DNA of 64,000 nucleotides from Knoellia koreensis. Its GTDB lineage: Bacteria; Actinomycetota; Actinomycetes; Actinomycetales; Dermatophilaceae. This document shows positions 133 to 63,595 of the stretch, in pieces. The position numbers and the translations under genes were made by a program. The DNA lies in the NCBI RefSeq assembly GCF_013041615.1, contig NZ_JABEPQ010000001.1:1170976-1234975 (forward strand), given 5' to 3'. Under the pieces are notes generated by a model that was not told the origin of the DNA, ran no database searches, and was given only the letters and a program-made list of their open reading frames with translations. Each line of letters starts with the position of its first letter. Within the stretch, counting starts at the first letter, position 1.

Positions 133-1557
133 CTAGTAGCTGAAACGTTCGAGGTGGATGTGCTCGGCGGGGACGCCGCAGGCGAGGGCGGCCTTGCGCG
201 CGGCCGTCATCCAGCCGTCCGAGCCGCAGACGTAGACCTCGTGCTCGGCGACGTCGGGGACGAGCTCGGCCAGCGCCTGCGCATCGGTGAGGTGGGCGGC
301 TGACTGCGGCAGCCAGCTGTCGCGACCCACCAGGCGCGACCCCAGGACGGTTACGTAACGGGCGCCCCGCTGCCCCGCGAGGGTGTCCAGCTCGGCGCAG
401 TGGACGAGCTCCTCGGCACTGCGTGCACGGTGCACCACGGTGACGTCGCCCGGCTGCTGCGGCAGCCCCTCGAGCAGGGCACGCATCGGCGTGATGCCGA
501 TGCCGGCGCCCATCAGGAGCACCTTGCGGCGGGTCCGGACCCCGTCGTGGAGCCGCCCATAGGGGCCCTCGACTAGGACGCGCGTGCCGGGCTTCAGCGT
601 CGCCAGCCGCGTCGACCCATCACCGAGATGCGCTGCGGTGAAACGCAGTTCGCGACCGCTCGGTGCGGCGGACAGCGAGTAGGGATTGGCCCGCGACCAC
701 CCGGGCCCGCCGAGGAACCGCCACTGGAAGAACTGTCCCGGCCGGGCCGCGAGCCGCGCCACGCCGGGCCCGCCGACCACGACCGACGTCACGCCGGGCC
801 CCTCCTGCGCCACTGCGACCACGCGAAGCGGCGCGCGCAATGAGCGCCACGCAGGCACCCCCAGACGGAACACGAGCACGGCACCCGCGCACGCGGCATA
901 CAACGTCCACCAGAACACGGTCGCGGTGCGCGAGCTGAGGAACTCCTGACCGGTCCACAGCTGGTGCGGGAGGGCCAGCCCGGCGCCGAGGTAGCCGTAG
1001 AGGTGGATGAGGTGCCACGACTCGTAGCGCAGTCGGCGCCTCGCCCTCTTGACCGAGGTGACCACGACCATGCACAGGGCGAGGGTGCCGGCGATGGCGA
1101 GCAGCATGCCCGGGTAGTTGAGCGTGAAGTCGACGATCGTGCCCCACAGGCCGAGCGGGCTCGCGGCGGCATACCCCAGGGTGATGAGGACGAGGTGCGC
1201 CCACAGCAGGGTGAACGACGTGAACCCGACATAGCGGTGGGTGCGCGCCAGACCGTCCTGCCCCCACGCCTGCTCGAACCACGGCACCCGCGCCATGAGG
1301 AACACCTGCACCAGCAGGAGGGCCGAGGCGACGAGCCCGGTGAGGCGGCCGATGCTCGTGAGAGCACCGGAGACCGTGCCGAGCTCCTGGATGCCACCGC
1401 CTGCAACCCAGAGGGCGACGACGAAGGTGAGGATCGCCCAGAAGAGTGAGAGGGACGCGTCGCGCCACCAGTGCGGCACGGGCCGGGGCGTGCGATGGCG
1501 GTATGCCGCGTCGGCGGCTGTGGAGCCGGGAGCGGCATCCGCGGTGGTCGTGGTCAT
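133..1557 (-). CDS. Ferric-reductase-like transmembrane oxidoreductase
   Basis: A 474-residue membrane flavocytochrome-type reductase. Residues about 35-220 form the hydrophobic ferric-reductase domain with several histidines in helices (haem ligands in this family). A cytosolic ferredoxin-reductase half follows: the FAD-binding motif RANPYSLSAAP and the NAD(P)-binding motif GAGIGITPM are both present. It probably moves electrons from NAD(P)H across the membrane to an extracytoplasmic acceptor, perhaps the FMN-binding protein encoded 9 nt downstream. I chose the ATG at 1557 (MTTTTADAAPG); the open frame continues upstream but that part overlaps the divergent gene and has no domain. The physiological acceptor cannot be told from sequence. 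Confidence 0.85.
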   Translation of the reverse strand: MTTTTADAAPGSTAADAAYRHRTPRPVPHWWRDASLSLFWAILTFVVALWVAGGGIQELGTVSGALTSIGRLTGLVASALLLVQVFLMARVPWFEQAWGQDGLARTHRYVGFTSFTLLWAHLVLITLGYAAASPLGLWGTIVDFTLNYPGMLLAIAGTLALCMVVVTSVKRARRRLRYESWHLIHLYGYLGAGLALPHQLWTGQEFLSSRTATVFWWTLYAACAGAVLVFRLGVPAWRSLRAPLRVVAVAQEGPGVTSVVVGGPGVARLAARPGQFFQWRFLGGPGWSRANPYSLSAAPSGRELRFTAAHLGDGSTRLATLKPGTRVLVEGPYGRLHDGVRTRRKVLLMGAGIGITPMRALLEGLPQQPGDVTVVHRARSAEELVHCAELDTLAGQRGARYVTVLGSRLVGRDSWLPQSAAHLTDAQALAELVPDVAEHEVYVCGSDGWMTAARKAALACGVPAEHIHLERFSY

Positions 1558-1665
1558 GGTTGGAGTGTCAGGGTCAATGCTGTGTGGTTGCTGTGGGACG
1601 GCCATGACGCCGGTGGGAGTCCGTCCCGGGGAGCAGCTGTCACCAAGGCGTGGTTGTCTGGCGGC

Positions 1666-2226
1666 ATGGCAGACGACACGAACGACAGCGGCACCACCGA
1701 CAACGCGGCCTCGGTGGCCGCGCTCGACACCGGGCTCGACCAGCTCGCCGAGCTGGTGGCGACCGTGGGGCCGGACGACCTCGACAAGCCCACACCGTGC
1801 ACCGACTGGCAGGTGCGCGACCTCGTCGACCACGTGCTCCACAGCACCGCCGGCATGGCCAAGGCCGCGCGGGGCGAGCAGGTGGACTGGTCGGCGCCCA
1901 CACCCCACGCCGACGACCCGGTGGCTGCCTTCGGCGAGCGTGCGCAGGAGCTGCGGACGGTCATGGCCGACGCGGGCGATGCCGCCAACGCCGACTGGCA
2001 GCTCGCCGAGATCGCCACGCACAGCTGGGATCTCGCGACGGCGCTGGGCCGCTCGACGGCCGACCTCGACCCGGTGGTGGCCGAGCGCGGGTTGGCATTC
2101 ATGCGGTCACAGCTGACGCCGGACAAGCGGGGGGCAGCCTTCAAGCCCGAGCAGCGGGCCCCGGAGGGTGCGGACGCCTACGGCCGCATTGCGGCCTTTG
2201 CCGGCCGAGAGGTCCGGCAGACCTAG
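1666..2226 (+). CDS. TIGR03086-type metal-binding protein (maleylpyruvate isomerase N-terminal/DinB-like fold)
   Basis: 186 residues. The N-terminal half has the family hallmarks PTPCTDWQVRDLVDHVLHS, where the Asp/His-rich helix supplies one metal ligand, and IATHSWDLATALG supplies further histidines of the DinB/mycothiol-dependent maleylpyruvate isomerase four-helix bundle. Proteins of this group are often mycothiol-linked, which fits an actinobacterium, but the substrate is unknown. Start chosen at ATG 1666 (MADDTND) because homologous sequence begins shortly after it; no strong ribosome binding site is visible. Divergent from the ferric reductase and convergent with the P-loop kinase. Confidence 0.75.
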   Translation: MADDTNDSGTTDNAASVAALDTGLDQLAELVATVGPDDLDKPTPCTDWQVRDLVDHVLHSTAGMAKAARGEQVDWSAPTPHADDPVAAFGERAQELRTVMADAGDAANADWQLAEIATHSWDLATALGRSTADLDPVVAERGLAFMRSQLTPDKRGAAFKPEQRAPEGADAYGRIAAFAGREVRQT

Positions 2227-2286: not shown

Positions 2287-2961
2287 TCAGCCAGGTGCGA
2301 CGATGCGGCCGTCGACGACCACGAGGTCGGCACCCGTTGATTCGCGCAGGACCCTGCGGGCGTTGGCCTCGTCGGACCGGTCGACCCACGCCGTCGCGTC
2401 GGCAGGCTCGCGCCCCGCTTCGACATGGCGGACGATGAGCCGCTCGCGGCGCACGTCGTCGGCCAGCGCCACCAGCCACGCCTCGTCGAGCAGGGCCCGC
2501 ACCGGCCGCCAGGCCGGGTCGTCGAGCAGCAGGTAGTTGCCCTCGGTGACGACGACGTCCACCTCCACCCCGATGGCGATCGCATCGGCCTCCGCCTCCC
2601 CCACCGCATGGTCGAAGGCCGGTGCGGTCACGACCCGGCGCGGTGAGGTGCGTAGCGAAGCCAGCACCGCGGCATACCCCTCTGCGTCGAAGGTGTCGGG
2701 CGCTCCCTTGCGGTCGCGACGCCCGAGCCGGTCCAGTTCCGCGTTGGGAAGGTGGAAGCCGTCCATCGGGACGTGACCCACGCGGCCGCTCAGACCTGGG
2801 TCGGCACCGACCGTCGCGAGCAACCCGGCCACGAGCGTCGTCTTGCCGGCACCGGGCGGTCCTGCGATCCCGAGCACCCGACGGCGACCGTCGCCGCGCG
2901 CCCGATCGGCCAGCGCGCGCACCCGGCTCACCAGTCGCGGGTCGACTGCGGTCAGGTCCAC
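2287..2961 (-). CDS. Nucleoside/nucleotide kinase family protein (uridine-kinase/pantothenate-kinase-like P-loop)
   Basis: 224 residues with a Walker A motif GIAGPPGAGKTT near residue 32 and the downstream signature VPMDGFHLPNAELDRLG, typical of the uridine kinase, phosphoribulokinase and pantothenate kinase family, followed by DTFDAEGY and EGNYLLLDDPAW. These residues bind ATP and the phosphate-acceptor substrate; which small molecule is phosphorylated (a nucleoside, a sugar or fructose-like compound) is not decidable here. It starts at GTG (complement 2959-2961), overlapping the TauE/SafE stop by 10 nt, so it is the last gene of the proS-HAD-TauE run and probably translationally coupled. 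Confidence 0.8.
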   Translation of the reverse strand: MDLTAVDPRLVSRVRALADRARGDGRRRVLGIAGPPGAGKTTLVAGLLATVGADPGLSGRVGHVPMDGFHLPNAELDRLGRRDRKGAPDTFDAEGYAAVLASLRTSPRRVVTAPAFDHAVGEAEADAIAIGVEVDVVVTEGNYLLLDDPAWRPVRALLDEAWLVALADDVRRERLIVRHVEAGREPADATAWVDRSDEANARRVLRESTGADLVVVDGRIVAPG

Positions 2962-3734: not shown

Positions 3735-4538
3735 TCAGCGCCGCCCGCGGGACGGCTCCGCCAGGGCGCACCACTCGGCCACGATGTCGAGCACGTCGCC
3801 CAGCTCGTTGACCTGGCCGTCCGGCGTGACGTCCACCGCCACCTGCTGCGACACCGGGATCTCGCTGTGCGGCACCCAGATCGCGCGCATGCCCACCTGC
3901 TGCGGACCGTGCACGTCCTCGTACGGCCGGTCGCCGACATAGACCGCTCGCTCGGGCGCGACATCGACCGCGGCGCAGGCTGCCTCGAACGCCTCGGCGT
4001 GCGGCTTCACGACATGGATCTCCGAGGAGTAGACGTCGCCGTCGATGAGGTCGAGCACCCCGTCACGCTCGAAGATGCCCCGGTGGTAGTCGCGCGACCA
4101 GATCGTGTTGGAAAGAACGCCGACGCGAATTCCCCTGTCGCGCAAGGCTTCCCACAGTGGTCGGACCTGTGGGTCGGTGAACGTGTGCGGTTCCCAGAAG
4201 CCTTGGTATGCCGCGAGCGCCAGGTGGTGCCGGTCGTGCGCCGGGTCGACGCCGGCGTCGGCGAGGATCGCGTCGATCGACGCGCTCTCGTGGGAGTCGC
4301 GACCGCGCGCCCAGGCCCGGTCCTCGGCGGCGAGGATGCGCGCGGCCAGGTCCTCGGCAGCCGCCAGGTCCTCCTTCGACACCTCGTCCGAGTCGACCGG
4401 CACACCGTGCACCTCGCGGGCGAAGACCCGCCACTGGCTGGACATGTCGACCGTGTGCCACGGCGTCAACGTGCCGCCCCAGTCGAAGATCACCGCCTCG
4501 ACCGTCTGCACCTCCGCGTGCTCCCCCGCCGCCGCCAT
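3735..4538 (-). CDS. HAD-family hydrolase
   Basis: 267 residues. Motif I is FDWGGTLTPW near residue 18: the nucleophilic Asp is present but the usual second Asp (acid/base, two residues on) is Gly, as in the FDWGGTL branch of HAD proteins. Motif II is VLSNTIW, and motif III/IV lie in VKPHAEAFEAA and VYVGDRPYEDV, so the fold is complete. Likely a phosphatase or a degenerate/altered member; substrate unknown. ATG at 4538 overlaps the proS stop by one base (TGATG), indicating coupling to proS. Confidence 0.82.
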   Translation of the reverse strand: MAAAGEHAEVQTVEAVIFDWGGTLTPWHTVDMSSQWRVFAREVHGVPVDSDEVSKEDLAAAEDLAARILAAEDRAWARGRDSHESASIDAILADAGVDPAHDRHHLALAAYQGFWEPHTFTDPQVRPLWEALRDRGIRVGVLSNTIWSRDYHRGIFERDGVLDLIDGDVYSSEIHVVKPHAEAFEAACAAVDVAPERAVYVGDRPYEDVHGPQQVGMRAIWVPHSEIPVSQQVAVDVTPDGQVNELGDVLDIVAEWCALAEPSRGRR

Positions 4539-6379
4539 CAGGACCCGGCGCTCCCCGTGCCCTCGGCGTTCGCGGTGTCCACGGCTTCCTTGGCGCCCGC
4601 GCCGCCGCGCACCTCGCGCACGATCTCGGCCACGGCGTCGCCGACGGCGACCTCGCGACGCTCACCGCTGCGGCGGTCCTTGATCTCGATGACGCCGTTC
4701 TCGAGCGACTTGCCCACGACGACGATGGTCGGGACGCCGATGAGCTCGGAGTCCTTGAACTTCACGCCGGGGCTGACCTTCTGCCGGTCGTCGTAGAGCA
4801 CCGACAGCCCGGCGGCCTCGAGCTCACGGGTCAGCTGCTCCCCCGTCTCGAAGACCTCGGGGTCACGTGTGACGTCCTTGCCGGTCGCCACGAGGTGCAC
4901 GTCGACCGGGCTGAGCTCGCGCGGCCAGACGATGCCGAGGTCGTCGTGGTTGCCCTCGACGACGGCAGCGACCGCGCGCGAGACGCCCACGCCATAGGAC
5001 CCCATGATGACGGTCTGGAGCTTGCCGTTCTGGTCGAGCACCTTGAGGTCGAGCGCCTCGGCGTACTTGGTGCCGAGCTGGAAGATGTGCCCCATCTCGA
5101 TGCCTCGGGCCGACTCCAACGCGTGCCCGCAGGACGGGCAGGCGTCGCCGACCCGCACGTCTGCGGCCTCGATGACACCGTCGGCCTCGAAGTCGCGACC
5201 CTTCACCAGGTCGATGAAGTGCTGGCCCTCCCAGTTCGCACCGGTCACCCAGCGCGTGCCGTCGACGACGCGCGGGTCGAGCAGGTAGCGGATGCCGGAC
5301 GTGCCCTCCGACCCGAGCACGTTGGGCCCGATGTAGCCCTTGACGAGAGTCGGGTTGGCGGCAAAGTCCTTTTCCTCGAAGGGTTCCACGCTGGCCGGCT
5401 CGACCTGCGCACCCAGTCGCTTCTCGTCGATCTCGCGGTCACCGGGGATGCCGATGGCCAGCGGCTCGCGCGTGCCGTCGGGGTGAACGAGCGTGACGAG
5501 CACGTTCTTCAAGGTGTCCGCAGCCACCCACTCGCGCCCGTCCGAGCGCGGGAAGTGCTCGTTGAGGTGGGCCACCAGGGTCTCGATCGTCGGGGTGTCC
5601 GGCGTCGACTCGGCGTGCGCACCCGGCGTCCCCTCGAAGGGGACCGCCTCGGGAACCGGCACCCGCACGGCCTCGACGTTCGCGGCATACCCGCAGTGGG
5701 GGCAGTGCACGTAGGTGTCCTCGCCGTTCTCGGCGGTCGCGAGGAACTCCTCGGACTTCGAGCCGCCCATGGCGCCGGCCATCGCCTGGACGATGACGTA
5801 GTGGAAGCCGAGCCGGTCGAAGATGCGGATGTAGGCGTCGCGGTGCAGCTGGTAGCTCTTGTCGAGCCCGGCCTCGTCGATGTCGAACGAGTAGCTGTCC
5901 TTCATGACGAACTCGCGCCCGCGCAGGACGCCCGCGCGCGGCCGCGCCTCGTCGCGGTACTTCGTCTGGATCTGGTAGATCGCGAGCGGCAGGTCCTTGT
6001 AGGACGAGAACAGGTCCTTGACCGCGAGGGTGAACATCTCCTCGTGCGTCGGCCCGAGCAGGTAGTCGTCGTCCTTGCGGTCCTTGAGCCGGAAGATGTT
6101 GTCGCCGTACTCCTCCCAGCGCCCGCTCGCCTCGTAGGGCGCCTTGGGCAGCAGCGCCGGGAACAGCAGCTCCTGCGCGCCGATCGCGTCCATCTCGTCG
6201 CGGACGATCTTCTCGACGTTGCGCAGCACCCGCAGGCCCATCGGCAGCCACGTGTAGATGCCGGGGCTCACCCGGCGGATGTACCCGGCCCGGACGAGCA
6301 GCTGGTGACTCGGCACCTCGGCGTCCGCCGGGTTCTCGCGAAGGGTTCGCAGGAACAGGGACGACATGCGCAGGGCCAC
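4538..6379 (-). CDS. proS: Prolyl-tRNA synthetase
   Basis: 613 residues, bacterial-type ProRS that charges tRNA-Pro with proline. Class II motif 2 region ([20 protein letters not shown]) and motif 3-type [14 protein letters not shown] are visible, and a long insertion (editing/INS domain) lies between motifs 2 and 3, with a CxxC pair (CPHCGY). The C-terminal anticodon-binding domain runs from about residue 500. GTG at 6379 is preferred over the ATG four codons later because AAGGAG sits 6 nt upstream of it. Distance to the DoxX gene is about 200 nt and contains two palindromes and a GTATGCCGCG word. Confidence 0.95.
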
Positions 6380-6495
6380 GTGGCTCTCCTTCGGGTGGTG
6401 GAGGCCCCGTCGCGGGGCCGCCGCCAAGGATATCGGCCGGTATGCCGCCCGCTCACCGCGGTTTCGCCCGTCCCCTCCCAGCCGTGGCCCCTCGT

Positions 6496-6566: not shown

Positions 6567-6582
6567 AGGGTATGCCGCGTGG

Positions 6583-6984
6583 TCAGGGGCGGCGAGAAGC
6601 CTTGAGGGCGGTGCGGATGAGGGGCAGCTGGAGCGGCAACCGGGCCAGGGTGGCAGCGAACGCGACCCGCGACGAGGTGTCCTGCCGGCGCTGCGCCCGC
6701 TTGCCGTAGTTGGCGCTCATCTGGACGTTCCCAGGCGCGACGGCGACCAGCAGCGCGGCACTGGCCCACCCGGCATACCGACGCGTCCTCGGGTGCACCA
6801 GCCCGGCCGCGCACACCAGCTCGGCCACGCCGGACAGGTAGACGATCTCGCGGCGACGCGGCAGGGACTTCGGCACGAGCGGCTCGAACACCTCCGGCTT
6901 GACGAGGTGCGTGGTGCCGGAGGTGGCGAACAGCGCGGCGAGTCCGGCGATGTCCTTGGTCAGCGGTGCGGCGGGAGTCCTCAC
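6583..6984 (-). CDS. DoxX-family membrane protein
   Basis: 133 residues with four predicted hydrophobic helices and the DoxX-type pattern [20 protein letters not shown] ... [20 protein letters not shown]. Role in the family is poorly defined (thiol/redox-linked membrane complexes in some actinobacteria). GTG start at 6984 overlaps the preceding stop as GTGA, so it is co-translated with the GNAT and small membrane protein genes upstream. No catalytic residues can be pointed to. Confidence 0.7.
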
Positions 6985-7250: not shown

Positions 7251-8092
7251 AGCAGGACGGTCGAGAACGAGCCGACCTCGACGAACCCGACCTTCTCGTA
7301 CGTCGCGCGGGCGCTGGCGTTGAAGTCGTTGACGTACAACGTGACCCAGCGCGCCCGGGTCGTCATCACCTGCTCCACGACCGAGGCCATCAGGGCCGTC
7401 GCGAGCCCCTGCCCGCGCAGGTGCGGCGCCAGCCACACACCCTGGATCTGCGCGCACCCGAGCGCCACCGACCCGACGTCGGCCTTGAACACGACCGCGC
7501 CGTCCTCGATGACGACGAACGTGTGGCCGCGGTCGATGAGGGCGAGCAGCGCCGACCGGTATGCCGCGCCGGAACCGGTGTAGGGCGGGTAACCGATCTC
7601 GCCCTCGAACATGTGCGCCGCAGCCGGCATCACGAGGTCGACCTCGTCCTCGGTCGCCGGTCGCACCCGCTCGTCGAGCTCGACCCCCCGGCTCGAGGGC
7701 AGCGTCGTCATGCTCATGAGGGGTTGGTTGGACCGCACGGCCCGCGCCGGACCCCACGTCGGCTCGAGCTGGCGCCACAGCTCGGTCACCTGTTCCTGCG
7801 GCCCGAGGATCGACGCGCAGTGCCGCCGCCAGCGCCGCACCCGCTCGGAGAACCAGCCCAGGCTCTCGTCCGTGGCCTCGACGGGCACGAGGTTGGCGCT
7901 GGACCAGCACAGCGACTGCAGCCGGCCGCCCTCCTTGTGCCCGAGCACCGTTCCCGGCTGGGTCTGCAGGGCACCCTCGAGCAGTCGCGCGGCCACGAAC
8001 ACGTTGGCGGCCAGGTCGCGCGAGCAGACCTCGAGGGCGGAGTCGCGGTCCGACGCGGACAGTGCCTGGACCGGGTTGCGGGTGCGGAGCAC
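7247..8092 (-). CDS. DUF4081-GNAT N-acetyltransferase
   Basis: 281 residues. The N-terminal half (about 1-120) matches the DUF4081 type of domain that precedes GNAT in actinobacteria; the C-terminal half is a GNAT acetyltransferase with the acetyl-CoA-binding motif A IQGVWLAPHLRGQGLATALM (RGQGLA loop) and the motif B region YVNDFNASARATYEKVGF. Substrate unknown. In many actinobacteria this gene lies directly after ispG; here about 3.6 kb of other genes separate the two. Start is GTG at 8092. Confidence 0.85.
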   Translation of the reverse strand: MLRTRNPVQALSASDRDSALEVCSRDLAANVFVAARLLEGALQTQPGTVLGHKEGGRLQSLCWSSANLVPVEATDESLGWFSERVRRWRRHCASILGPQEQVTELWRQLEPTWGPARAVRSNQPLMSMTTLPSSRGVELDERVRPATEDEVDLVMPAAAHMFEGEIGYPPYTGSGAAYRSALLALIDRGHTFVVIEDGAVVFKADVGSVALGCAQIQGVWLAPHLRGQGLATALMASVVEQVMTTRARWVTLYVNDFNASARATYEKVGFVEVGSFSTVLL

Positions 8093-8192: not shown

Positions 8193-8582
8193 ATGGAGCG
8201 CGACGACCTGGTCCGGCTGCGGCAGGCCCGCGACCGGATCGACCGCGACTACGCCGAGCCGCTCGACGTGCCGTCGCTCGCCCGTGCGGCGCACATGTCG
8301 ACCGGCCACTTCCAGCGGTCGTTCAAGGCGGCCTTCGGTGAGACTCCCTACTCGTGGCTGATGACCCGCCGGGTCGAGCGCGCGATGTGGCTGCTGCGGG
8401 GCGGCTCGAGCGTCACCGACGCCTGCATGGAGGTCGGCTGCACCTCGCTGGGGTCGTTCAGCGCGCGCTTCACCGAGCTCGTGGGCGAGACCCCGAGCGC
8501 GTATGCCGCGAGGTCCCACGAGGGGCTCGTGGGAGTTCCCGGGTGCATCGCCAAGCAGGTGACCCGCCCGCGGCGCGAGTGA
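8193..8582 (+). CDS. AraC-family transcriptional regulator (DNA-binding domain only)
   Basis: 129 residues that are essentially one AraC/XylS DNA-binding domain: two helix-turn-helix units, the first around LARAAHMSTGHFQRSFKAAF and the second around VTDACMEVGCTSLGSFSARF. No ligand-binding or dimerisation domain is attached, as in SoxS/MarA-type short regulators. ATG 8193 is used because the upstream in-frame sequence has no domain and overlaps the divergent GNAT gene. The divergent arrangement suggests it may control GNAT or itself; target unknown. Confidence 0.85.
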   Translation: MERDDLVRLRQARDRIDRDYAEPLDVPSLARAAHMSTGHFQRSFKAAFGETPYSWLMTRRVERAMWLLRGGSSVTDACMEVGCTSLGSFSARFTELVGETPSAYAARSHEGLVGVPGCIAKQVTRPRRE

Positions 8583-11681: not shown

Positions 11682-12842
11682 TCAGCCGACGGTGACGGTG
11701 GGTGCTCCAGCGGACTCACCGTCGACGGGCTCGCCCATCTCCTCGGCGATGCGCATCGCTTCCTCGATCAGGGTCTCCACGATGGCCGACTCGGGCACGG
11801 TCTTGATGACCTCGCCCTTGACGAAGATCTGGCCCTTGCCGTTGCCGGAGGCGACACCGAGGTCGGCCTCGCGGGCCTCGCCGGGACCGTTGACGACGCA
11901 GCCCATGACGGCGACGCGCAGCGGCACCTCCATGCCCTCGAGTCCCGCGGTCACCTCGTCGGCGAGCTTGTAGACGTCGACCTGCGCGCGTCCGCACGAC
12001 GGGCACGACACGATCTCGAGCTTGCGCGGGCGCAGGTTGAGCGACTGCAGGATCTGCGTGCCGACCTTGACCTCCTCGACCGGAGGCGCCGACAGCGAGA
12101 CGCGGATGGTGTCGCCAATTCCCTTGGACAGCAACGCTCCGAACGCCGTCGCCGACTTGATGGTGCCCTGGAACGCCGGCCCGGCCTCGGTCACCCCGAG
12201 GTGCAGCGGCCAGTCGCCGCGCTCGGCCAGCAGCTCGTAGGCGCGGACCATGACGACGGGGTCGTTGTGCTTCACCGAGATCTTGAAGTCGTGGAAGTCG
12301 TGCTCCTCGAAGAGCGACGCCTCCCAAACGGCCGACTCGACCAGGGCCTCGGCGGTCGGCTTGCCGTACTTCTCCAGCAGCCGCTTGTCGAGCGAGCCCG
12401 CGTTGACGCCGATGCGGATCGAGACGCCGGCCTCCTTGGCGCGCCGCGCGATCTCCCCCACCTGGTCGTCGAACTGGCGGATGTTGCCCGGGTTGACGCG
12501 CACGGCCGCGCACCCGGCGTCGATCGCGGCATACACGTAGTTGGGCTGGAAGTGGATGTCGGCGATCACCGGGATCTGCGACTTGCCGGCGATCGCGGGC
12601 AGCGCCTCGGCGTCGTCGCGGCTCGGGACGGCGACGCGCACGATGTCGCACCCGGCCGCGGTGAGCTCGGCGATCTGCTGGAGCGTCGCGTTGACGTCCG
12701 TGGTCGGGGTCGTGCACATCGACTGCACCGAGATGGGTGCGTCGCCGCCGACGTCGACCTTGCCCACCTTGATCTTGCGCGTCTTGCGCCGGGGCGCGAG
12801 GACGGGCGGGGGCAGGGCCGGCATACCGAGACCAACACTCAT
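11682..12842 (-). CDS. ispG: 4-hydroxy-3-methylbut-2-en-1-yl diphosphate synthase (GcpE)
   Basis: 386 residues. IspG reductively converts ME-cPP to HMBPP in the MEP isoprenoid pathway using a [4Fe-4S] cluster. The N-terminal TIM barrel is intact ([28 protein letters not shown]), and the cluster ligands are in SCPSCGR and [11 protein letters not shown] near the C-terminus. Start at ATG 12842 ([14 protein letters not shown]) matches the usual actinobacterial N-terminus; an ATG six codons upstream is possible. The other MEP gene dxr and rseP are 6-8 kb upstream on the same strand, separated by inserted genes. Confidence 0.96.
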
Positions 12843-12968
12843 GCGTCCATTATCCGTCATCGCCCGCGAGCCCCTCACCGCGGTGGGTGGTCGGGTCATC
12901 CTCGAGAGGTATGCCGCGTGGTCCCGCGGGCGGACGCGCGCGGCTTGCGTGCCCCCTAGCCTTGGCGG

Positions 12969-14141
12969 GTGACCGATGTGTGGGGCGATGCGTGGCGGCC
13001 GTCGCGGCGCGGTGTTGCGCTCGACGTGGTCGGGGCTGCCGGCTTCACGCTGGTGATGGCCCTGCTGCACGGGAGCCTCGGCCGTTCGGCGGTCGTGGCG
13101 GCGGTGTTGCTGGGCCTGGCGTTGGCCGTCCGCCGGGTGTCCTGGCAGGCGATGTCCGTGTTGGCCTTCACCAGTGCCGTGGTGCAGGTGACAACCTTCA
13201 ACATCGCCTATCTGGCCGACGCGGCATACCCCCTGCTCTTCTTCACCCTTGGTGGCCACCGGGCGCCCACGGTGCGGCGCTTCGGACTCGTCGCAGCGGT
13301 GGTGGCGACCGTGGTGGGTGGACTCTTCCCCGCGCTGGTCCAGGACGCGCCGCAGCGTTCGATCTTCGAGACCGTCGCCGTGTGTGCCGGGCTGGCGGCC
13401 CTCACGGCGGTGTTCACGGCTGGCGGATGGGTCGCGGGATACCTGCGGTGGCAGCGCCGCCAGGCCGTCCAGGCTCGCGTCGATGCCCAGCTCGAGGCGG
13501 CCGAGCGACGCCGCCTGGGCGAGCTCTACGACGTCGAGCAGGAGCGGCGACGCATCGCCGCCGACATGCACGACGTGGTGGCGCACTCCTGGGCCGTCGT
13601 CGCGGCCCAGAGCGACGGGGCACGCTACGCGCTGCGGCAGGACCCCGCGGCCGCGGAGCGCGCCCTTGAAGTCATCGGCGACACGGCGCGGACGGCGATC
13701 ACCGACCTGCGCACCATCGTCGCGCAGCTGCGCGACCCCGCGCTGGCGCCGACCACACCCGGCTACGCCCAGCAGCAGGAGGTCATCGACCGCATGCGCG
13801 CCTCCGGGATGGACCTGCAGGCGCGCGAGACCGGCACCCGCGACGAGTCACCGCTGGTGGCGTTGACCGCGCACCGGCTCCTCGCCGAGTCGCTCACCAA
13901 CGCACTCAAGCACGGGGACCTGTCGGAACCGGTCGTGCTCACCCAGGACTGGGACGACGGCTACCGTCTCACCGTGACCAACCGCGTCAGCGCCACCCCG
14001 GCAACCGACGGCGACACGGGGCACGGGTTGGTCGGGATGGCCGAGCGGACCACCGTGGCGGGCGGCACCTTCGAGGCCGGGCGTGAGGGTGATGTGTGGG
14101 CCGTCCGGGTGCACCTGCCGACGGCGGGAGGATCGTCGTGA
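12969..14141 (+). CDS. Sensor histidine kinase, HisKA_3 (NarL/DesK) type
   Basis: 390 residues. The first ~160 residues hold several hydrophobic helices (a membrane sensor without a large extracellular domain). The dimerisation/phosphoacceptor helix has [20 protein letters not shown] with the phosphorylated His at residue 201; the ATPase domain follows, with an N-box region around [18 protein letters not shown] and a G-box [11 protein letters not shown]. Start is GTG 12969. It overlaps the response regulator by GTGA, and both precede an ABC transporter, an arrangement typical of systems that sense and expel or resist membrane-active compounds. Confidence 0.92.
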
Positions 14142-14785
14142 CAATCCGCGTGGCGCTGGTCGACGACCAGGCGATGTTCCGCGCCGGCATCGCGATGGTG
14201 ATCGGCAGCCAGGACGACCTGGAGGTCGTCGGCGAGGCCGCCGACGGCGCCGAGGCGGTCGCCCTGGTCACCTCGGCTCGCCCCGACGTGGTCCTGATGG
14301 ACGTCCGTATGCCGCGGATGGACGGAGTCGAAGCGAGCCGAAGGATCGTGGCCGAGTTCGGCGACAGCGCACCAAAAGTGTTGGTGCTGACCACTTTCGA
14401 CCTCGACGATCTCGTGGCCGACGCGATCGAGGCAGGGGCGAGCGGGTTCGTCCTCAAGGAGTCTGCGCCCGAGCTGCTGCTCGCGGCGATCCGCGCCGTG
14501 GCCGACGGCACCCAGGTCGTGGCAGCCGGCGCGACGCGAGCCGTCTTCGAGCGCTTCCGGGAGCGCGCAACGACGGCACCCGGTGCGGAGTACGAGCGAC
14601 TCACCCCGCGCGAGCGGGAGATCATGCTGCGGGCGGCACAGGGGCTGTCGAACGCCGAGATCGCCGAGGCCGAGTTCCTGTCCGAGGCCACCGTGAAGAC
14701 GCACGTCTCGCGCATCCTCACCAAGCTCGACCTGCGCGACCGCGTGCAGCTCGTCGTCTACGCCTACGAGCACGGCCTCCTCTGA
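14138..14785 (+). CDS. NarL/LuxR-type response regulator
   Basis: 215 residues: receiver domain with the acidic pair in VALVDDQAMFRAG, the phosphoacceptor Asp55 in VVLMDVRMPRMDG, and the conserved Thr/Lys (VLTTFD, FVLKESAP); then a C-terminal LuxR HTH (LTPREREIMLRAAQGLSNAEIA ... ATVKTHVSRILTKL). Partner of the histidine kinase encoded just upstream. Start GTG 14138 overlaps the kinase stop (GTGA). The likely target is the ABC transporter promoter in 14786-14959. Confidence 0.93.
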   Translation: MTIRVALVDDQAMFRAGIAMVIGSQDDLEVVGEAADGAEAVALVTSARPDVVLMDVRMPRMDGVEASRRIVAEFGDSAPKVLVLTTFDLDDLVADAIEAGASGFVLKESAPELLLAAIRAVADGTQVVAAGATRAVFERFRERATTAPGAEYERLTPREREIMLRAAQGLSNAEIAEAEFLSEATVKTHVSRILTKLDLRDRVQLVVYAYEHGLL

Positions 14786-47507: not shown

Positions 47508-47656
47508 GTCGGGTCCTCCTGGGTGGCTCGGGGGTTCCTGCGCATACTTCCACATTCCCCGTGGGCTCACTTCTCCGGCAGCGTGGCAGGGTATGCCGTG
47601 GAGTCGCCGCCCGCGTGACCGCGCGGGCACCCAGCCCCCGACCTTCAGGAGCGTTG

Positions 47657-51050: not shown

Positions 51051-52196
51051 TCAGAACCGGAGGGTGCCCACACCACCGGGCCACGCCACGGCCGGACCCA
51101 ACGCGGTGCGGGCCTGGGCCAGCTGCGCGGGAGGGCACGGTCTGGGCACGTAGTCCACGAGGGTGTTGTCCGTCTGGATGCACCGGAAGGTGAGTACTCC
51201 GCTGCCGCTGGGCTCCCAGCGCAGGTTGGCGATCGCGCCCAGTCCGGGCCGCCCGTAGGTGTCGAACCGTCCCGGGGCGCCGAAGACGAAGTTGCCGATG
51301 CCGTAGGCGACCGGCATGCCCTTGACGACCTCGACCGCCTGGAGTGTGTGCGAGCCGCTGCCGATCACGACGTCGTACCCGGCATCGGCGAAAACCCCTG
51401 CCCAGTAACGCTGTTGGTAGTTCACGTCGTCGTAGTTGTCGCCCCAGTGGACGAACGCGACGACCTTGGTGGCCCCGTTGTCCCGGGCCACCCGGATCGC
51501 CCGCTCGATGCGGTCAGGCTTGAGCGGCAGCATGCCCGGAGTCACCTCGGTGCTGCGGTGCATGGCGCCGAAGTTCTCGCCGAACGACACCACCGCCACA
51601 TCGTGCTGGGATGAGCGCACCAGCAGTGGCATCGACGCCTCGGCCATGGTGGGGCCGGCTCCGAACGTGGCGATCTCATTGGACCTCGCCGCCGCGAGGG
51701 TGTCGCTGAGCCCCGCACCTCCGCGGTCCATGGCGTGGTTGTTGCCGAGGTTGAGGGCGTCGACGCCGAGGTCGCGCAGGGCCGGGAGGTATGCCGGGTC
51801 GCTGGCATAGGAGTACTTCGCACCTCGGTTGGCGGGTGGGGCGGCGGCCGTGAAGGGGGTCTCGGAGTTGATGACCAGGTAGTCGGACGCGGCCACGAGT
51901 GGCCGCACCCCCGCGAGGAGCGGCACGACGCCCACGGCGGCCAGCTTCTCCGCGGCTCCGTCACCGAACATGCTGTCGCCGCCGAACGTCAGGTCGAGCA
52001 CCCCGTCGGGCAGCGACGGGACCATTGCCTCGACCACCGGCTCGGGTGGCGGAGCCGCAACGGCGAGCTGCCAGCTGAGGGCTCCGCCGGTGCCAAGCGC
52101 GGTCGCGAGGCACAGGGCGATGAGGCGTCGGTCGCGGCGCAGGTGCCGGCCGGCGGGACGACGGGCACGGCGACGGAAGATCGGACGGGCCACCAT
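51051..52196 (-). CDS. CapA-family metallophosphatase-like protein, membrane-anchored
   Basis: 381 residues. A very basic start (MVARPIFRRRARRPAGRHLR) and one helix (LIALCLATALGTGGALSWQL) place the rest outside. The CapA/PGA-synthesis fold is evident: DLTFGGDSMFG, NLGNNHAMDRGGAG, FVHWGDNYDDV, VIGSGSHTLQAV and YGIGNFVFG, holding the His/Asp/Asn metal ligands. ATG 52196 overlaps the ABC gene stop by one base (TGATG). CapA is involved in gamma-polyglutamate export or anchoring; here it accompanies an exporter and an NTPase, but CapB, CapC are absent. Confidence 0.88.
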   Translation of the reverse strand: MVARPIFRRRARRPAGRHLRRDRRLIALCLATALGTGGALSWQLAVAAPPPEPVVEAMVPSLPDGVLDLTFGGDSMFGDGAAEKLAAVGVVPLLAGVRPLVAASDYLVINSETPFTAAAPPANRGAKYSYASDPAYLPALRDLGVDALNLGNNHAMDRGGAGLSDTLAAARSNEIATFGAGPTMAEASMPLLVRSSQHDVAVVSFGENFGAMHRSTEVTPGMLPLKPDRIERAIRVARDNGATKVVAFVHWGDNYDDVNYQQRYWAGVFADAGYDVVIGSGSHTLQAVEVVKGMPVAYGIGNFVFGAPGRFDTYGRPGLGAIANLRWEPSGSGVLTFRCIQTDNTLVDYVPRPCPPAQLAQARTALGPAVAWPGGVGTLRF

Positions 52197-53977
52197 CACA
52201 GACCCGCCGCCGGCCATCGGGTGTTCCGCGCAGACCTGGTGCGCCACAACCGGTCCCGGTACTCCTCACCGGTCAGCACGGTCGCCGGTTCGTCGGGGTC
52301 CAGGACCCACACCGAGTCGGCCAGGGAGAGCGCATCGGGGTCCTGGGTCACCATCAGCACCGTGCCGCGGTGGCGCAGCAGGGCTTCGCGCACGAGGGAC
52401 CGAGACGTGGCGTCGAGGCCGGTCATGGGCTCGTCGAGCAGCAGGATCCTCGGGGTGCCCATCATCGCCCGGGCCAGGGAGACGAGCTGCCGGTCACCGG
52501 CGCTGAGGTTGGCGCCACCCTCGGTGACCCAGTCCGAGAGCCCGTGGTGACCGTGCCGCGCCAGCGACTCGTCGAGGCCGAGACCCTTGACCACGCGCTG
52601 GACCTCGGCATCGGAAGCCCGCTGCGCGGCATACGTCACGTTGCGTCGCACGGTCCCCCGCAGGAGCGGCAGGTCCGGGCTCGAGACGCCCATCATCGGG
52701 CCGACCGACGAGGGTGCCGTGTCGGCCAGGCGCTGGCCGTCGATGACGACGTCCCCGGAGGCCGGCTCGACGAGCCGCGCGAGGATGCCGAGCAGGGTCG
52801 ACTTGCCGCTGCCCGAGGGCCCGGTCACCGCGACCAGCTCGCCGCGGTCGGCCACGGCGGAGAAGCCGCGCAGGGCACCCGGCACGGTGACGTCGACGAA
52901 CTCGATCCGGCCACCGCGCACGGTGAGCGGCTCGAGGTCGTCCTCCCGTGGGTGACGGCTCGAGCTGACCAGGAAGTCGAGCACCTTCTGACGCGAGACC
53001 AGGCCGCGGTGCCAGTAGTCGTGCGCGAGACCGAGGGTGCGCACCGGCCGCGCGAGGTAGCGCGCGAGCAAGGCGCAGGCGATGACCTCCGGCATCGTCG
53101 TCGTGCCTCGGCGCACTCCCACGACCCCGACGGCGAGGACCGCCGCCACCGACACGAGCGAGGCACCCGCCGCCAGTCCGCGCAGCTGGCCGCGCAGGGC
53201 AGCCACGCGGCACAGGGCCCGGGTGAGCGAGTCGTTCTGGCGGGACAGGCGCGCATACTCGCCCGCGGTACGCCCGGACACCTGGCTCACCCGCACCGTG
53301 TTGAGCTGCTCGTCGATGTTGCCCATCAGCAGCGAGCGACGCCGACGCATCGTCCGCGTCGCCTCACGCATCGAGCGGCCGAACCCCAGCGACATGGCGG
53401 CCCCCAGGGCGAGGACGCACACGACGGCGAGCCCCATCCACAGGTCGAGCCAGAAGACGACCCCGAGGCCGACCGTGAGCACGATGGCGGCCGAGATCCC
53501 TTCCAGCAGACCGCGACTCAACCACATGCGCAGCATCGACAGGTCGCCGGTGAGGCGCAGCAGCAGCCCACCACGCGCGCGGTGCCGCAGGTGCTCGGGC
53601 CGCATCCGCTGCAGATGGGCGTACATGTCCATGCGCAACCGGCGCACCACCTCGTAGCCGGCCCGTTCGGCCCGGGTGAACTCCAGGGCTCGCGCCGCCC
53701 CGATGAGGACACCGAGACCGCCGAGGATGGCGGTGTCGCGCAGTCCGCCCTCGTAGGCCTGGACCGCCGCGTTTCCCACCCCGGTCGGTGTCAGCGACTC
53801 GATGACGCGGCGCGTGAGCACCACGAAGGCCGCGAGAGCGCCGGCCTGTACCAGCCCGAGGAACCCCACGACGACGAAGTCGGTGGGACGAAGGTCGAAG
53901 ACGTGGTCGAAGTCCTCTCGTTCCAACCGGTTTCGCTGTCGCGTGGCGCGGGCCTGCGCGGCGGCCGTGGCCGTCAC
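52196..53977 (-). CDS. ABC exporter, fused permease and ATPase
   Basis: 593 residues: six transmembrane helices in residues ~30-320 and an ATPase domain with Walker A GPSGSGKSTLLGIL, signature LSAGDRQLVSLARAM and Walker B ILLLDEPMTGLD. It is a half-size exporter that would work as a homodimer, of the type used for lipids, peptides or natural products. GTG 53977 overlaps the NTPase stop by GTGA. With CapA downstream it probably exports the product linked to the NTPase. Confidence 0.9.
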   Translation of the reverse strand: MTATAAAQARATRQRNRLEREDFDHVFDLRPTDFVVVGFLGLVQAGALAAFVVLTRRVIESLTPTGVGNAAVQAYEGGLRDTAILGGLGVLIGAARALEFTRAERAGYEVVRRLRMDMYAHLQRMRPEHLRHRARGGLLLRLTGDLSMLRMWLSRGLLEGISAAIVLTVGLGVVFWLDLWMGLAVVCVLALGAAMSLGFGRSMREATRTMRRRRSLLMGNIDEQLNTVRVSQVSGRTAGEYARLSRQNDSLTRALCRVAALRGQLRGLAAGASLVSVAAVLAVGVVGVRRGTTTMPEVIACALLARYLARPVRTLGLAHDYWHRGLVSRQKVLDFLVSSSRHPREDDLEPLTVRGGRIEFVDVTVPGALRGFSAVADRGELVAVTGPSGSGKSTLLGILARLVEPASGDVVIDGQRLADTAPSSVGPMMGVSSPDLPLLRGTVRRNVTYAAQRASDAEVQRVVKGLGLDESLARHGHHGLSDWVTEGGANLSAGDRQLVSLARAMMGTPRILLLDEPMTGLDATSRSLVREALLRHRGTVLMVTQDPDALSLADSVWVLDPDEPATVLTGEEYRDRLWRTRSARNTRWPAAGL

Positions 53978-55680: not shown

Positions 55681-55743
55681 GTATGCCGCACGCGGCCCCT
55701 CGGGCGAAGGGACGCGGGCCGCCTCGCCAGGCACGCGGCATAC
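55681..55743. repeat. Inverted pair of GTATGCCGC downstream of tsf
   Basis: GTATGCCGC (55681-55689) and GCGGCATAC (55735-55743), with inner GCGGCCC/GGGCCGC arms between them, form a long hairpin between the short hypothetical gene and tsf. Confidence 0.65.
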
Positions 55744-57710: not shown

Positions 57711-57977
57711 GCCGTGGTCCTCCTTGTGTCGTTGTCAGTTACGTCGGTGTGCCGCGTGGCTGCGACCACCTGCCTGGCGTCTGCAACGCACCCCGCCGGC
57801 ATACTGGCCGGACTGCCGTGGTGCGCCCCCGCTTCGTCGGCGAGCCGAGTCAGCGGGTGGAAGACGCGCGAATTCGACCGGCACGAGACCGGTCGTCCGA
57901 CCATGGTACGCCGTGCGGGGCTGAGCACGGTAATCCGGTCGCGCCGTGCGCCCGCACGCGGCTAGGGTCGCGGGCTT

Positions 57978-59222
57978 GTGACATCCATCCCCGCCCGCGT
58001 CGTCGAGTGGCTGGTCCCGGCGCGGATGGGGACGGCGTTCCGGTGGAACCTCGCCTCCTCGTGGGCCGGCCAGCTGGGTGACGGCATCGCCGTCGCCGCC
58101 GGACCATTGCTCGTGGCCTCGCTGACGCGCAACCCGACGCTCATCGCGGCCGCGGCCATGGTCCAGCACGTGCCCACGCTCCTGCTGGGGCTGTATGCCG
58201 GCGCCATCGCCGACCGCGTCGACCGGCGCCGCCTCGTGCTGGCCGCGAACCTCGTGCGGGTCGCGGTGCTGGCCGTGCTCGTCGTGACGATTGCGACCGG
58301 CCACATCTCGATCGGGTTGCTCCTTGGGGTGCTCTTCGCCGTCGGGGTGGCCGAGCTGTTCGCCGACACCGGGTGGCGTGCCGTGCTGCCGATGATCGTG
58401 CCCAAGGCCGACCTCGGCATCGGCAACGCGCGCCAGATGTCGGCCTTCCTCGTGGCCAACCAGATGGTGGGCCCGGCGGTCGGGGCGTCGCTGTTCGCCC
58501 TCGGCCAGGCCGTGCCGTTCGGGGTGCAGGGTGCCGCGCTCCTGCTGGCGGCCGCGCTGTTCACCAAGGTGCGGCTGCCCGCGTCGGCCGCTGGTGGTGC
58601 GAAGCCCGAGCAGCACATCGGGCGCGACATCACCGACGGGCTGCGGTGGATCTGGCACCACGCGCCCATCCGCACCCTGACCCTGGTCATCTTCATCTTC
58701 AACATCACCTGGGGCGCGCCGTTCGGCGTCCTCGTCTACTGGGCGCAGGAGCGACTGGGGCTGGGGTCGGTCGGGTTCGGGCTGCTCACGACTGCCTCGG
58801 CCGTCGGCGGGATCGTCTCGGTGCTGCTCTACGACCGGCTCGAGCGGATCGTTCCTCTCGCCCGACTGATGCGGATCTGCCTGTCGCTGGAGGTGGTGAC
58901 CCACCTGGCGCTCGCGCTCACCACGATCCCGTGGGTCGCAATGGCGATCATGGTCGTCTTCGGCGGCTACGCCTTCGTGTGGGGCTCGCTGTCCTCCGCA
59001 GTGCGGCAACGCGCGACACCGGACGAGTACCAGGGGCGCGTGGGCTCGGTCTACTGGCTCGGCCTCATCGTCGGGCTGCTGGTCGGGCAGTTCCTCGGCG
59101 GGCAGATCGCCTCGCACTTTGGGGCGGCGGCGCCGTTCTGGTTCGCCTTCGCTGGGTCCGGGATCACGCTGGTGCTGGTGTGGAGACAGCTGGCCCACAT
59201 CGCCCACGCCGAGGCCGACTGA
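57978..59222 (+). CDS. MFS transporter
   Basis: 414 residues with about 11-12 transmembrane helices. The loop 2-3 motif GAIADRVDRRRLVLAANLVR is the MFS signature. It belongs to the MFS group with an enterobactin exporter (EntS)-like layout (TAFRWNLASSWAGQLGDGIA; QRATPDEYQGRVGSVYWLGL). Substrate not inferable; an efflux role is likely. GTG 57978 and divergent from rpsB. Confidence 0.85.
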   Translation: MTSIPARVVEWLVPARMGTAFRWNLASSWAGQLGDGIAVAAGPLLVASLTRNPTLIAAAAMVQHVPTLLLGLYAGAIADRVDRRRLVLAANLVRVAVLAVLVVTIATGHISIGLLLGVLFAVGVAELFADTGWRAVLPMIVPKADLGIGNARQMSAFLVANQMVGPAVGASLFALGQAVPFGVQGAALLLAAALFTKVRLPASAAGGAKPEQHIGRDITDGLRWIWHHAPIRTLTLVIFIFNITWGAPFGVLVYWAQERLGLGSVGFGLLTTASAVGGIVSVLLYDRLERIVPLARLMRICLSLEVVTHLALALTTIPWVAMAIMVVFGGYAFVWGSLSSAVRQRATPDEYQGRVGSVYWLGLIVGLLVGQFLGGQIASHFGAAAPFWFAFAGSGITLVLVWRQLAHIAHAEAD

Positions 59223-60210: not shown

Positions 60211-60246
60211 GAGGTATGCCGCGGGGGCGAGCCCGCGGCATACCTC
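60211..60246 (-). terminator. Perfect hairpin built from GAGGTATGCCGCGGG
   Basis: Fifteen-base arms (60211-60225 and 60232-60246) with a six-base loop, 9 nt downstream of the M6-type metalloprotease stop codon on the minus strand. It has the two GTATGCCGC words in inverted orientation and is a strong terminator candidate. Confidence 0.8.
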
Positions 60247-60254
60247 ACCCCTGC

Positions 60255-62369: not shown

Positions 62370-62437
62370 AATTCGGACGGTAGACCTGCCCCAAGGCACT
62401 CGCCACCGGAAGTCTGCACACGGCATACCCTCAGGTC

Positions 62438-63595
62438 ATGTCGCGCCCACCCGGCAACCCGGCCCTCGCACCGTTCGGCACCACGATCTTCGCCGAGATG
62501 AGTGCGTTGGCCCTCGAGCACGACGCGATCAACCTCGGGCAGGGATTCCCCGACACGGACGGGCCGCGCGAGATGCTCGATGCCGCAAAGGCGGCGATCG
62601 ACGCCGGGCGCAACCAGTACCCACCGGGCCCTGGGGTGCCGGAACTGCTGGATGCCGTTGCGGCGCATCAGGATCGGTTCTACGGGATCGACCTCGACCC
62701 GCGACGCGAGGTGCTCGTGACGGTCGGTGCGACCGAGGCGATCGCGGCCACGATCCTCGCGTTGTGCGGCCCCGGCGACGAGGTGGTCACCTTCGAGCCC
62801 TACTACGACTCGTATGCCGCGTCGATCGCCCTCGCCGGCGCCACTCGCCGCACCTCGGTGCTGCGCTTCCCGGACTTCGCCGTCGACGAGGAGTCCCTGC
62901 GGGCGGCGTTCTCCCAGCGCACGCGCATGGTGCTGCTCAACACCCCACACAACCCGACCGGCAAGGTGTTCACGCGCTCCGAGCTCGAGCTGATCTGTTC
63001 TCTGGCGTGGGAGTTCGATGCCTGGGTGGTGACCGACGAGGTCTACGAGCACCTCGTGTTCGACGGCGTCGAGCACATCCCGGTCGCGACGCTGCCCGGC
63101 ATGAGGGAGCGGACGCTCACCATCTCCTCGGGCGGCAAGACGTTCTCGGCCACGGGGTGGAAGGTCGGTTGGGTGAGTGGACCGGCCGAGGCGGTCGCGG
63201 CGGTGCGGGCGGTCAAGCAGTTCCTCACCTTCGTGGGGTCGGGGCCGTTCCAGCCGGCCGTCGCCGTGGCCCTGGGCCTCGGTGACGACGTGTACGACGG
63301 GTTGTCGAAGTCGTTGCAGGACAAGCGAGACCTGCTCATCGACGGTCTGCGGTCGGCCGGCCTTGAGGTGTCGGTGCCGGCGGGCACCTACTTCGTCGTG
63401 GCCGATGCCGCTCCGCTCGGCGCGACCGACGGGCTGGCGTTCTGTCGCGAGCTGCCGGCCCGCGCCGGCGTGGTCGCCGTGCCGGTGTCGGTCTTTCACG
63501 ACGACAAGGACGCCGCGAGAACGTTGGTGCGGTTCGCCTTCTGCAAGCGCGACGAGGTGTTGCAGGAGGCCGTGCGCCGCCTGACCGCGCACTGA
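62438..63595 (+). CDS. PLP-dependent class I aminotransferase
   Basis: 385 residues, fold type I. PLP Lys in LTISSGGKTFSATGWKVGW, and INLGQGFPDTDGP, NQYPPGPGVPEL and NTPHNPTGKVF are typical of kynurenine/glutamine transaminase and YbdL-like methionine aminotransferases. Acts on an aromatic or sulfur amino acid probably. Divergent from the M6 protease. Confidence 0.88.
   Translation: MSRPPGNPALAPFGTTIFAEMSALALEHDAINLGQGFPDTDGPREMLDAAKAAIDAGRNQYPPGPGVPELLDAVAAHQDRFYGIDLDPRREVLVTVGATEAIAATILALCGPGDEVVTFEPYYDSYAASIALAGATRRTSVLRFPDFAVDEESLRAAFSQRTRMVLLNTPHNPTGKVFTRSELELICSLAWEFDAWVVTDEVYEHLVFDGVEHIPVATLPGMRERTLTISSGGKTFSATGWKVGWVSGPAEAVAAVRAVKQFLTFVGSGPFQPAVAVALGLGDDVYDGLSKSLQDKRDLLIDGLRSAGLEVSVPAGTYFVVADAAPLGATDGLAFCRELPARAGVVAVPVSVFHDDKDAARTLVRFAFCKRDEVLQEAVRRLTAH

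Follow-up and report, generated by a model that had tools for sequence, protein, structure and literature searches.

Selection of a cell's own DNA by short words is known only from two Gram-negative families, the Neisseriaceae and the Pasteurellaceae, according to a 2025 paper (PMC12616744). We analyzed a 64,000-nucleotide stretch of Knoellia koreensis (contig NZ_JABEPQ010000001.1, positions 1,170,976–1,234,975 of the forward strand; hereafter the window), throughout which an 8-mer, GTATGCCG, recurs. Its behaviour in the whole genome and in relatives suggested that naturally competent Dermatophilaceae probably use it as a DNA-uptake (self-recognition) sequence. In the open-licence literature, we found no such word reported from Actinomycetota, and the 20 matches listed, of 3,232 returned by a text search for the word, appeared unrelated by title and abstract.

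The DNA uptake sequence (DUS) of the Neisseriaceae, ATGCCGTCTGAA, resembles GTATGCCG in being non-palindromic, in numbering thousands of copies on both strands, in having a core with clade dialects, and in forming inverted pairs at terminators; both words contain ATGCCG, by chance or not. However, GTATGCCG(CG) lacks CTG, the inner core of the DUS (PMC12616744), and is thus not a neisserial DUS proper, and an excess of one-mismatch copies is not clear here. ComP, which reads the DUS, is a minor pilin of type IV pili, whereas PilM of such pili was found in only one of the 40 genomes that we contrasted, so that type IV pili were rejected as the machinery. The uptake signal sequences (USS) of the Pasteurellaceae (AAGTGCGGT and ACAAGCGGT) share with GTATGCCG the balance between strands (740/731 copies by strand in Haemophilus influenzae; PMC2238722), inverted pairs at gene ends, an intergenic excess, and the occurrence of more than one word type per family, there two. 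In contrast to the USS with its AT-rich flank, none was seen around the 63 GTATGCCG copies of the window; 69 of 109 pairs within 14 bp are of the -/+ type in H. influenzae (PMC7811141), whereas 20 of the 29 opposite pairs within 80 bp are +/- here; and the words that replace each other in the present family differ more than the two USS types do. Competence of Micrococcus luteus requires two tad clusters and comEA/comEC (PMC4322843). Homologues of the same set, two tad clusters, comEA/comEC and dprA, are present in the genome that holds the window; the term "uptake sequence" is absent from the main text of the M. luteus paper (PMC4322843).

An exact count on both strands revealed 63 copies of GTATGCC in the window (29 forward, 34 reverse), close to the roughly 60, equally common in both orientations, that an earlier note on this DNA had estimated. 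The following base was G in 63 of 63 copies; the unit is therefore the 8-mer GTATGCCG. The longer form GTATGCCGCG, to which the note had assigned most copies, accounted for about half of them (31/63; 16/15 by strand), and the flanks of the copies had little in common. The GC content is high as described, the measured value being 70.5% rather than about 72%. Three inverted pairs that the note had placed in terminator-like hairpins were located, within 4 bases of its positions, at 14839/14880, 55681/55736 and 60214/60236, and a fourth, 20737/20760, lies within a predicted gene. All copies listed below come from the exact GTATGCCG search, and the pairs also from folding of the piece.

894..901, minus strand, word copy
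1167..1174, minus strand, word copy
1501..1508, plus strand, word copy
2670..2677, minus strand, word copy
4206..4213, plus strand, word copy
5683..5690, minus strand, word copy
6440..6447, plus strand, word copy
6570..6577, plus strand, word copy
6771..6778, minus strand, word copy
7559..7566, plus strand, word copy
8501..8508, plus strand, word copy
12527..12534, minus strand, word copy
12819..12826, minus strand, word copy
12909..12916, plus strand, word copy
13222..13229, minus strand, word copy
14307..14314, plus strand, word copy
14839..14846, plus strand, word copy, left arm of intergenic inverted pair 14839/14880, folded piece -29.0 kcal/mol
14880..14887, minus strand, word copy, right arm of inverted pair 14839/14880
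15813..15820, plus strand, word copy
16295..16302, minus strand, word copy
17181..17188, plus strand, word copy
18472..18479, minus strand, word copy
20737..20744, plus strand, word copy, left arm of inverted pair inside predicted gene, folded piece -30.7 kcal/mol
20760..20767, minus strand, word copy, right arm of inverted pair inside predicted gene
21100..21107, minus strand, word copy
21880..21887, minus strand, word copy
22473..22480, plus strand, word copy
24614..24621, plus strand, word copy
25616..25623, minus strand, word copy
26493..26500, minus strand, word copy
27121..27128, plus strand, word copy
28104..28111, minus strand, word copy
29369..29376, minus strand, word copy
29562..29569, plus strand, word copy
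32237..32244, plus strand, word copy
32809..32816, minus strand, word copy
34487..34494, minus strand, word copy
37097..37104, minus strand, word copy
37801..37808, plus strand, word copy
38585..38592, minus strand, word copy
38841..38848, plus strand, word copy
39821..39828, minus strand, word copy
41964..41971, minus strand, word copy
43522..43529, plus strand, word copy
44006..44013, plus strand, word copy
44549..44556, plus strand, word copy
44636..44643, minus strand, word copy
45504..45511, minus strand, word copy
46666..46673, plus strand, word copy
47040..47047, minus strand, word copy
47591..47598, plus strand, word copy
48168..48175, minus strand, word copy
49350..49357, minus strand, word copy
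51789..51796, plus strand, word copy
52627..52634, minus strand, word copy
55681..55688, plus strand, word copy, left arm of intergenic inverted pair 55681/55736, folded piece -37.4 kcal/mol
55736..55743, minus strand, word copy, right arm of inverted pair 55681/55736
57797..57804, minus strand, word copy
58193..58200, plus strand, word copy
60214..60221, plus strand, word copy, left arm of intergenic inverted pair 60214/60236, folded piece -40.6 kcal/mol
60236..60243, minus strand, word copy, right arm of inverted pair 60214/60236
62421..62428, minus strand, word copy
62812..62819, plus strand, word copy

The genome holding the window (4.28 Mb; coded G000, other G codes being relatives) contained 3,986 copies of GTATGCCG (1,983/2,003 per strand; 931/Mb), compared with 54/60 of the reversed word, and 888/889 copies of GTATGCCGCG, compared with 6/8 of its reversed form. 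In 504 kb of this genome, 452 copies of GTATGCCG were found, whereas Markov models trained on 524 kb of word-masked sequence predicted 3.4 (order 3) and 4.7 (order 4). The word is thus about 100-fold over expectation and no chance effect, and the genome-wide enrichment on which the earlier note had made its proposal depend is present.

Analysis of the copies in genes revealed that the word is kept as DNA rather than as a codon preference. As the note had observed, TAT and GCA codons are imposed on Tyr-Ala and Ala-Tyr pairs: 154 of the 320 genic copies read Tyr-Ala and 96 read Ala-Tyr on the other strand, with all six frames in use. In the word context (a Tyr codon after a codon ending in G, then Ala and G), TAT made up 152 of 177 Tyr codons (86%) in G000 but 4.0% of the 2203 Tyr codons elsewhere, with any that follow Ala excluded; codon context alone, which the note had named as a possible explanation, does not account for this difference. 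The corresponding shares were 98/112 in G349 (20% elsewhere) and 67/81 in G150 (14% elsewhere), compared with 0/14 in the word-less G274 and 1/19 in six further word-less sets combined. A codon or composition effect was rejected on the TAT contrast and the Markov expectation. Coding sites that synonymously permit the word were occupied in 320 of 610, 182 of 378 and 164 of 379 cases in G000, G349 and G150, respectively. Genes were predicted with a crude, self-made caller, which is probably at fault for the low coding fractions of G349 and G150 (0.69–0.71) and fails on lower-GC genomes, for which tblastn was therefore used. Copies also recurred at the same place in relatives, at a rate of 0.68 between G000 and G164 and of 0.65 across genera between G000 and G150, against 0.22 and 0.15 for control 8-mers of equal GC, whereas some word-poor pairs had no common positions (G164/Root101, 0/8).

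The layout of the copies was biased toward intergenic DNA. As the note had stated, the word lies in both kinds of DNA, its density in the 504 kb of G000 being 1.75/kb between genes and 0.75/kb within them. Among neighbours within 80 bp, 20 pairs were +/- (7.2 in simulations), 9 were -/+ (7.9), and ++ and -- pairs occurred once each (about 7.6 each). Of the 20 +/- pairs, 19 were intergenic, 2 of them between divergent genes, and 17 had their midpoint 20–128 nt past a predicted gene end, with the pieces holding such pairs folding at -15 to -62 kcal/mol; 6 of the 9 -/+ pairs were within genes. Apart from the extension of most copies to GTATGCCGCG, the distributional features named in the note hold in G000 and in relatives. 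Orientation along the chromosome exhibited no marked strand bias (chi-square 6.3, 10.0 and 4.8 over 23, 20 and 20 stretches of three genomes, spread in two of them round nearly the whole main contig). A KOPS/FtsK or other replichore-polar signal was rejected on these 63 stretches, in agreement with the note. The 8-mer core was constant in the word-bearing genomes sampled while the flanks varied, (CG) following GTATGCCG in Pedococcus and (TG) or (TC) in many others, and in G204 a C preceded the word in 23 of 28 copies. Two stretches of the relative G164, at 0–20 kb (L033) and 40–60 kb (L034) of contig C1, carry defence genes (BrxL, a Type ISP restriction enzyme and a Mu-like transposase; GC 65%) and contained 0 and 4 copies, respectively; 40 kb taken from other parts of this genome contained 19.

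In addition, copies were spaced separately on each strand. Neighbouring copies in G000 were of opposite orientation in 295 cases and of the same orientation in 134 (p 5e-15), or 259:129 when at least 100 bp apart, and same-strand spacing averaged 2.1 kb with a coefficient of variation (CV) of about 0.65; among 17 8-mers of similar frequency, the word included, it had the most opposite neighbours and the lowest CV. The opposite-to-same counts were 189:95 in G349 and 170:74 in G150 (400 kb each), and 14 relatives pooled gave 193 against 111 (p 3e-6), 2 of the 14 being reversed. When coding copies were redrawn from synonymous sites with intergenic copies fixed, none of 300 simulations reached the values of G000 or G150. 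Across 1170 possible coding sites, those less than 1.5 kb from a stretch end left out, occupancy depended on the distance to the nearest same-strand copy (0.22 below 250 bp, 0.41 at 0.5–1 kb, 0.68 at 1.5–2.5 kb and 0.63 beyond), whereas no rise was seen with distance to the opposite-strand copy (0.40 below 100 bp, 0.54 at 100–250 bp, 0.38 at 1.5–2.5 kb and 0.34 beyond); the logistic coefficients were 0.53 and -0.10, respectively (permutation sd 0.04 each). The opposite-strand coefficient of G349 was -0.34, so that opposite copies there rather cluster. Strand counts in 108 word-bearing genomes were nearer equality than a binomial distribution would give (sd of z 0.78). This strand-wise spacing, seen in three genera and new here, suggests that the word acts with polarity and is required on each strand. 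Published work on H. influenzae describes equal strands and even spacing of the USS (PMC2238722, citing Karlin 1996), and spacing less even than a compaction signal would show (PMC1939737); in the parts of the USS literature available to us, we found no statement on spacing per strand.

To delimit the distribution of the word, 186 genomes of the family from 53 genera were scanned, with density classes set after the distribution was known. At least 100 copies of GTATGCCG per Mb were present in 108 genomes (31 genera), 40–100 in 13, and fewer than 40 in 65 (22 genera). Outside the family, none of 114 genomes of the class exceeded about 51/Mb, and the 10-mer did not exceed 22 copies in any of 184 genomes of the order. 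A Tad ATPase of G000 was closest, among named genomes, to those of Pedococcus and Phycicoccus, by which the genome is Pedococcus-like (Dermatophilaceae/Intrasporangiaceae). Named loci with several copies came from Pedococcus, Knoellia, Serinicoccus, Ornithinimicrobium, Metallococcus (13 copies, but also 5 of the control word), Terrabacter and a Lapillicoccus metagenome-assembled genome, and no copy was found in Janibacter, Nostocoides, Kribbia and Austwickia, each examined at one locus of 8–21 kb per genome. A quick single-protein tree of 50 rows, in which named loci were labelled from one locus each, required at least seven changes of state, with word-less genomes nested in word-bearing groups. 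Three genera held both kinds, the word-less members being G203 in g2, G274 in g99 and G302 in g107.

Analysis of frequent-word lists of word-less relatives revealed other words. CGAAGGGGG was present in 1317–1939 strand-balanced copies in all seven Janibacter/Marihabitans-like genomes tested, out of 19 genomes of these genera (g8 and g4) in the family scan, and in 14–72 copies in 27 other genomes; in the tree, G249 (g8) grouped with named Janibacter and G190 (g4) with Marihabitans. Its density was 0.95/kb between genes and 0.31/kb in genes, and pairs within 80 bp were +/- in 5 cases, -/+ in 2 and of the same orientation in none; alternation of orientation was not significant (31:23, p 0.34; 64 copies). 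GGTAGCGGC was present in 333/292 copies in G302, which is nested in the Ornithinimicrobium group, compared with 31–112 for both strands together in 38 other genomes; its reversed form occurred 127/130 times in G302, near its level elsewhere. Thus, at least two word-less lineages carry another word rather than having simply lost GTATGCCG, and at least three different words exist within one family. Candidate words with about 4–13-fold excess over expectation in 40–80 kb, counted in these stretches rather than genome-wide, were G(A/G)CGTACG in G136 (L047, L048) and CGTAGACC in G203 (L115, L135, L151, L292).

Homologues of competence genes were present in G000: comEA-comEC at about 1097–1100 kb of C1, dprA at C1:1237611, 2.6 kb past the window, tad cluster A at about 85–91 kb of C9, adjoining a DECH helicase, and tad cluster B at about 286–291 kb of C8. 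Between tadC and flp of cluster A lie two genes (L110, 5991–7675) that were not found in the same cluster of 19 relatives. Genes were then compared between 20 word-bearing and 20 word-less genomes. The word-less G274 carries an insertion of about 37 kb inside tadC (C1, about 271.6–308.6 kb; L288, L289, L140), and its comEC changes reading frame near residue 650, so that two frames share the gene (L152, about 9.1–11.4 kb), which is either real or an assembly error. The insertion has lower GC, an IS3-like transposase and a weak tape-measure match. An apparently interrupted tadC was also seen in Terrabacter Root85 (L179) and Nostocoides F2B08 (L175), and mobile elements may have hit this gene repeatedly. 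In G302, comEC is short because the contig ends within it.

In our best reading, the number of copies, their equal share on the two strands, the inverted pairs past gene ends, the intergenic excess, the dialects, the family limits and the switching together fit uptake sequences better than any other system known to us. Word-bearing DNA would be favoured by a receptor located at the Tad/Flp competence pilus or close to it, and would cross via ComEA/ComEC in single-stranded form and recombine with the aid of DprA; biased uptake and recombination would then multiply the word at every genomic site where protein sequence and terminators permit. The word would have polarity, for example by fixing which strand enters, and we would guess that it sets both the entry point and the polarity of strand import. 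A shift in receptor specificity would cause the genome to be rewritten to another word, such as CGAAGGGGG in the Janibacter-/Marihabitans-like lineages and GGTAGCGGC in one Ornithinimicrobium-like lineage. It is from the genomes that we infer the competence of these species, the receptor, the uptake preference, the polarity and the cause of switching. If GTATGCCG is an uptake word, it would be the first outside the two Gram-negative families, and with word switching: more than 100 species of a Gram-positive family carry an uptake-like genomic signature, and the Tad pilus is not linked to such specificity in the parts of the literature that we found. We see about equal weight for and against the wider claim of a third independent uptake-sequence system, the first in Gram-positive bacteria, operating via Tad pili, strand-polar with each strand's own copies about 2 kb apart, and with words switched wholesale between lineages, at least three in one family, like passwords or mating types. 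Replacement of words within a genus and between related genera would offer a natural experiment on the origin, spread and change of uptake words, and strand-wise spacing is a quantitative, testable clue to mechanism that can be sought in DUS and USS genomes.

Several results weigh against an uptake role. Homologues of comEA/comEC are present in G000, but comEC, dprA and T2SSE-type (Tad-type) ATPases were found in all 40 contrast genomes with or without the word, and Tad proteins were about equally conserved in both groups (20–47 loci; proteins taken crudely as stop-to-stop frames), so that no gene found ties the word to competence and the link is one of likeness to known systems. Tad pilins were accordingly dropped as a receptor identifiable by differential conservation. 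Because a changed word needs no gene loss, word switching can explain the null contrast, and replacement fits G302, g8 and g4; no word was established in G203, G136, G274, G094, G050 and G341 in the 21–120 kb scanned, with many word-less genera unsampled. Terrabacter Root85 (L179) keeps the word though its tadC is apparently interrupted, and comEA and comEC are open in the word-less G203, by which loss of competence was rejected as a general cause of word loss. One-mismatch copies of GTATGCCG numbered 351 against 254 (order 3) or 327 (order 4) expected, not clearly an excess given control ratios of 0.61–1.58 and 0.68–1.46, whereas some mismatched forms are over-represented in known uptake systems (PMC1939737). 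Local GC did not correlate with word density in 100 windows of 5 kb in G000 (rho 0.15, p 0.15), and low GC was rejected as a proxy for islands, though single stretches were word-poor. The spacing effect was weaker in G349, where 12 of 300 simulations reached the orientation value and 133 of 300 the CV. Finally, USS uptake is reported to be independent of orientation (PMC1939737), and strand-wise spacing is therefore unpredicted by the classical model.

Other explanations of the word were weighed against the same data. An origin as a side effect of codon pairs, mutation bias or mobile repeats would suit the Tyr-Ala or Ala-Tyr reading of 250 of the 320 genic copies, but is almost certainly wrong in view of the TAT contrast within one genome, the absence of TAT from this context in G274 of a mixed genus, and the further occurrence of copies outside genes, in either orientation and each of the six frames, next to flanks that have little in common. 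A binding site of a chromosome-organising or silencing protein would agree with spacing that is even in all regions sampled and with the scarcity of the word in defence-gene stretches; it leaves the orientation effect, the +/- pairs at gene ends and the replacement between related genera unexplained, and we consider it very improbable. Scarcely more credit is due to a HIP1-like explanation, in which an orphan DNA methyltransferase, or a repair bias linked to methylation, would maintain the word. HIP1, GCGATCGC, is likewise an 8-mer, similarly dense in most cyanobacteria and linked to methyltransferases; it is sporadically lost, and a few genomes have other words in its place (PMC4390886), and GTATGCCG has potentially methylatable adenines on both strands. 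However, GTATGCCG is no palindrome, unlike HIP1 and its replacements, and strand-wise spacing and intergenic inverted pairs also speak against this explanation; no methyltransferase was linked to the word, none having been searched for.

Chi sites, which differ in sequence between species, are short words recognised on a single strand, and some chromosomes hold more of them than expected. In a Chi-like scheme, the main rival reading, a helicase-nuclease acting at double-strand ends (AdnAB or another) would read one strand and switch to recombination at the word, each strand needing its own spaced copies. Strand-wise spacing and the exclusion of close same-strand copies are what such a single-strand signal would give, variation of Chi between species is compatible with word replacement, and RecB-family nuclease domains, including adjacent AdnAB-like pairs, were present in 40 of 40 genomes; we therefore keep this role in consideration, although it is unlikely. 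AdnAB-like genes also occur in word-less genomes, the +/- pairs past gene ends are unexplained, orientation bias is absent from the stretches sampled, and the roughly 100-fold enrichment far exceeds that of Chi in H. influenzae, which is not especially over-represented (PMC2238722). RecC was found in 9 of the 20 word-bearing genomes and in 14 of the 20 word-less ones, among them the three that belong to mixed genera; its absence from 11 of the word-bearing genomes removes RecBCD as the reader, and a RecBCD Chi was rejected on this distribution.

An extra RecB-like nuclease frame (roughly 280–700 aa) was observed in G000 and in the 11 word-bearing genomes without RecC, mostly 11–14 kb from the AdnAB-like pair, as well as in the word-less G278 and G337; it is possibly a stand-in for RecBCD.

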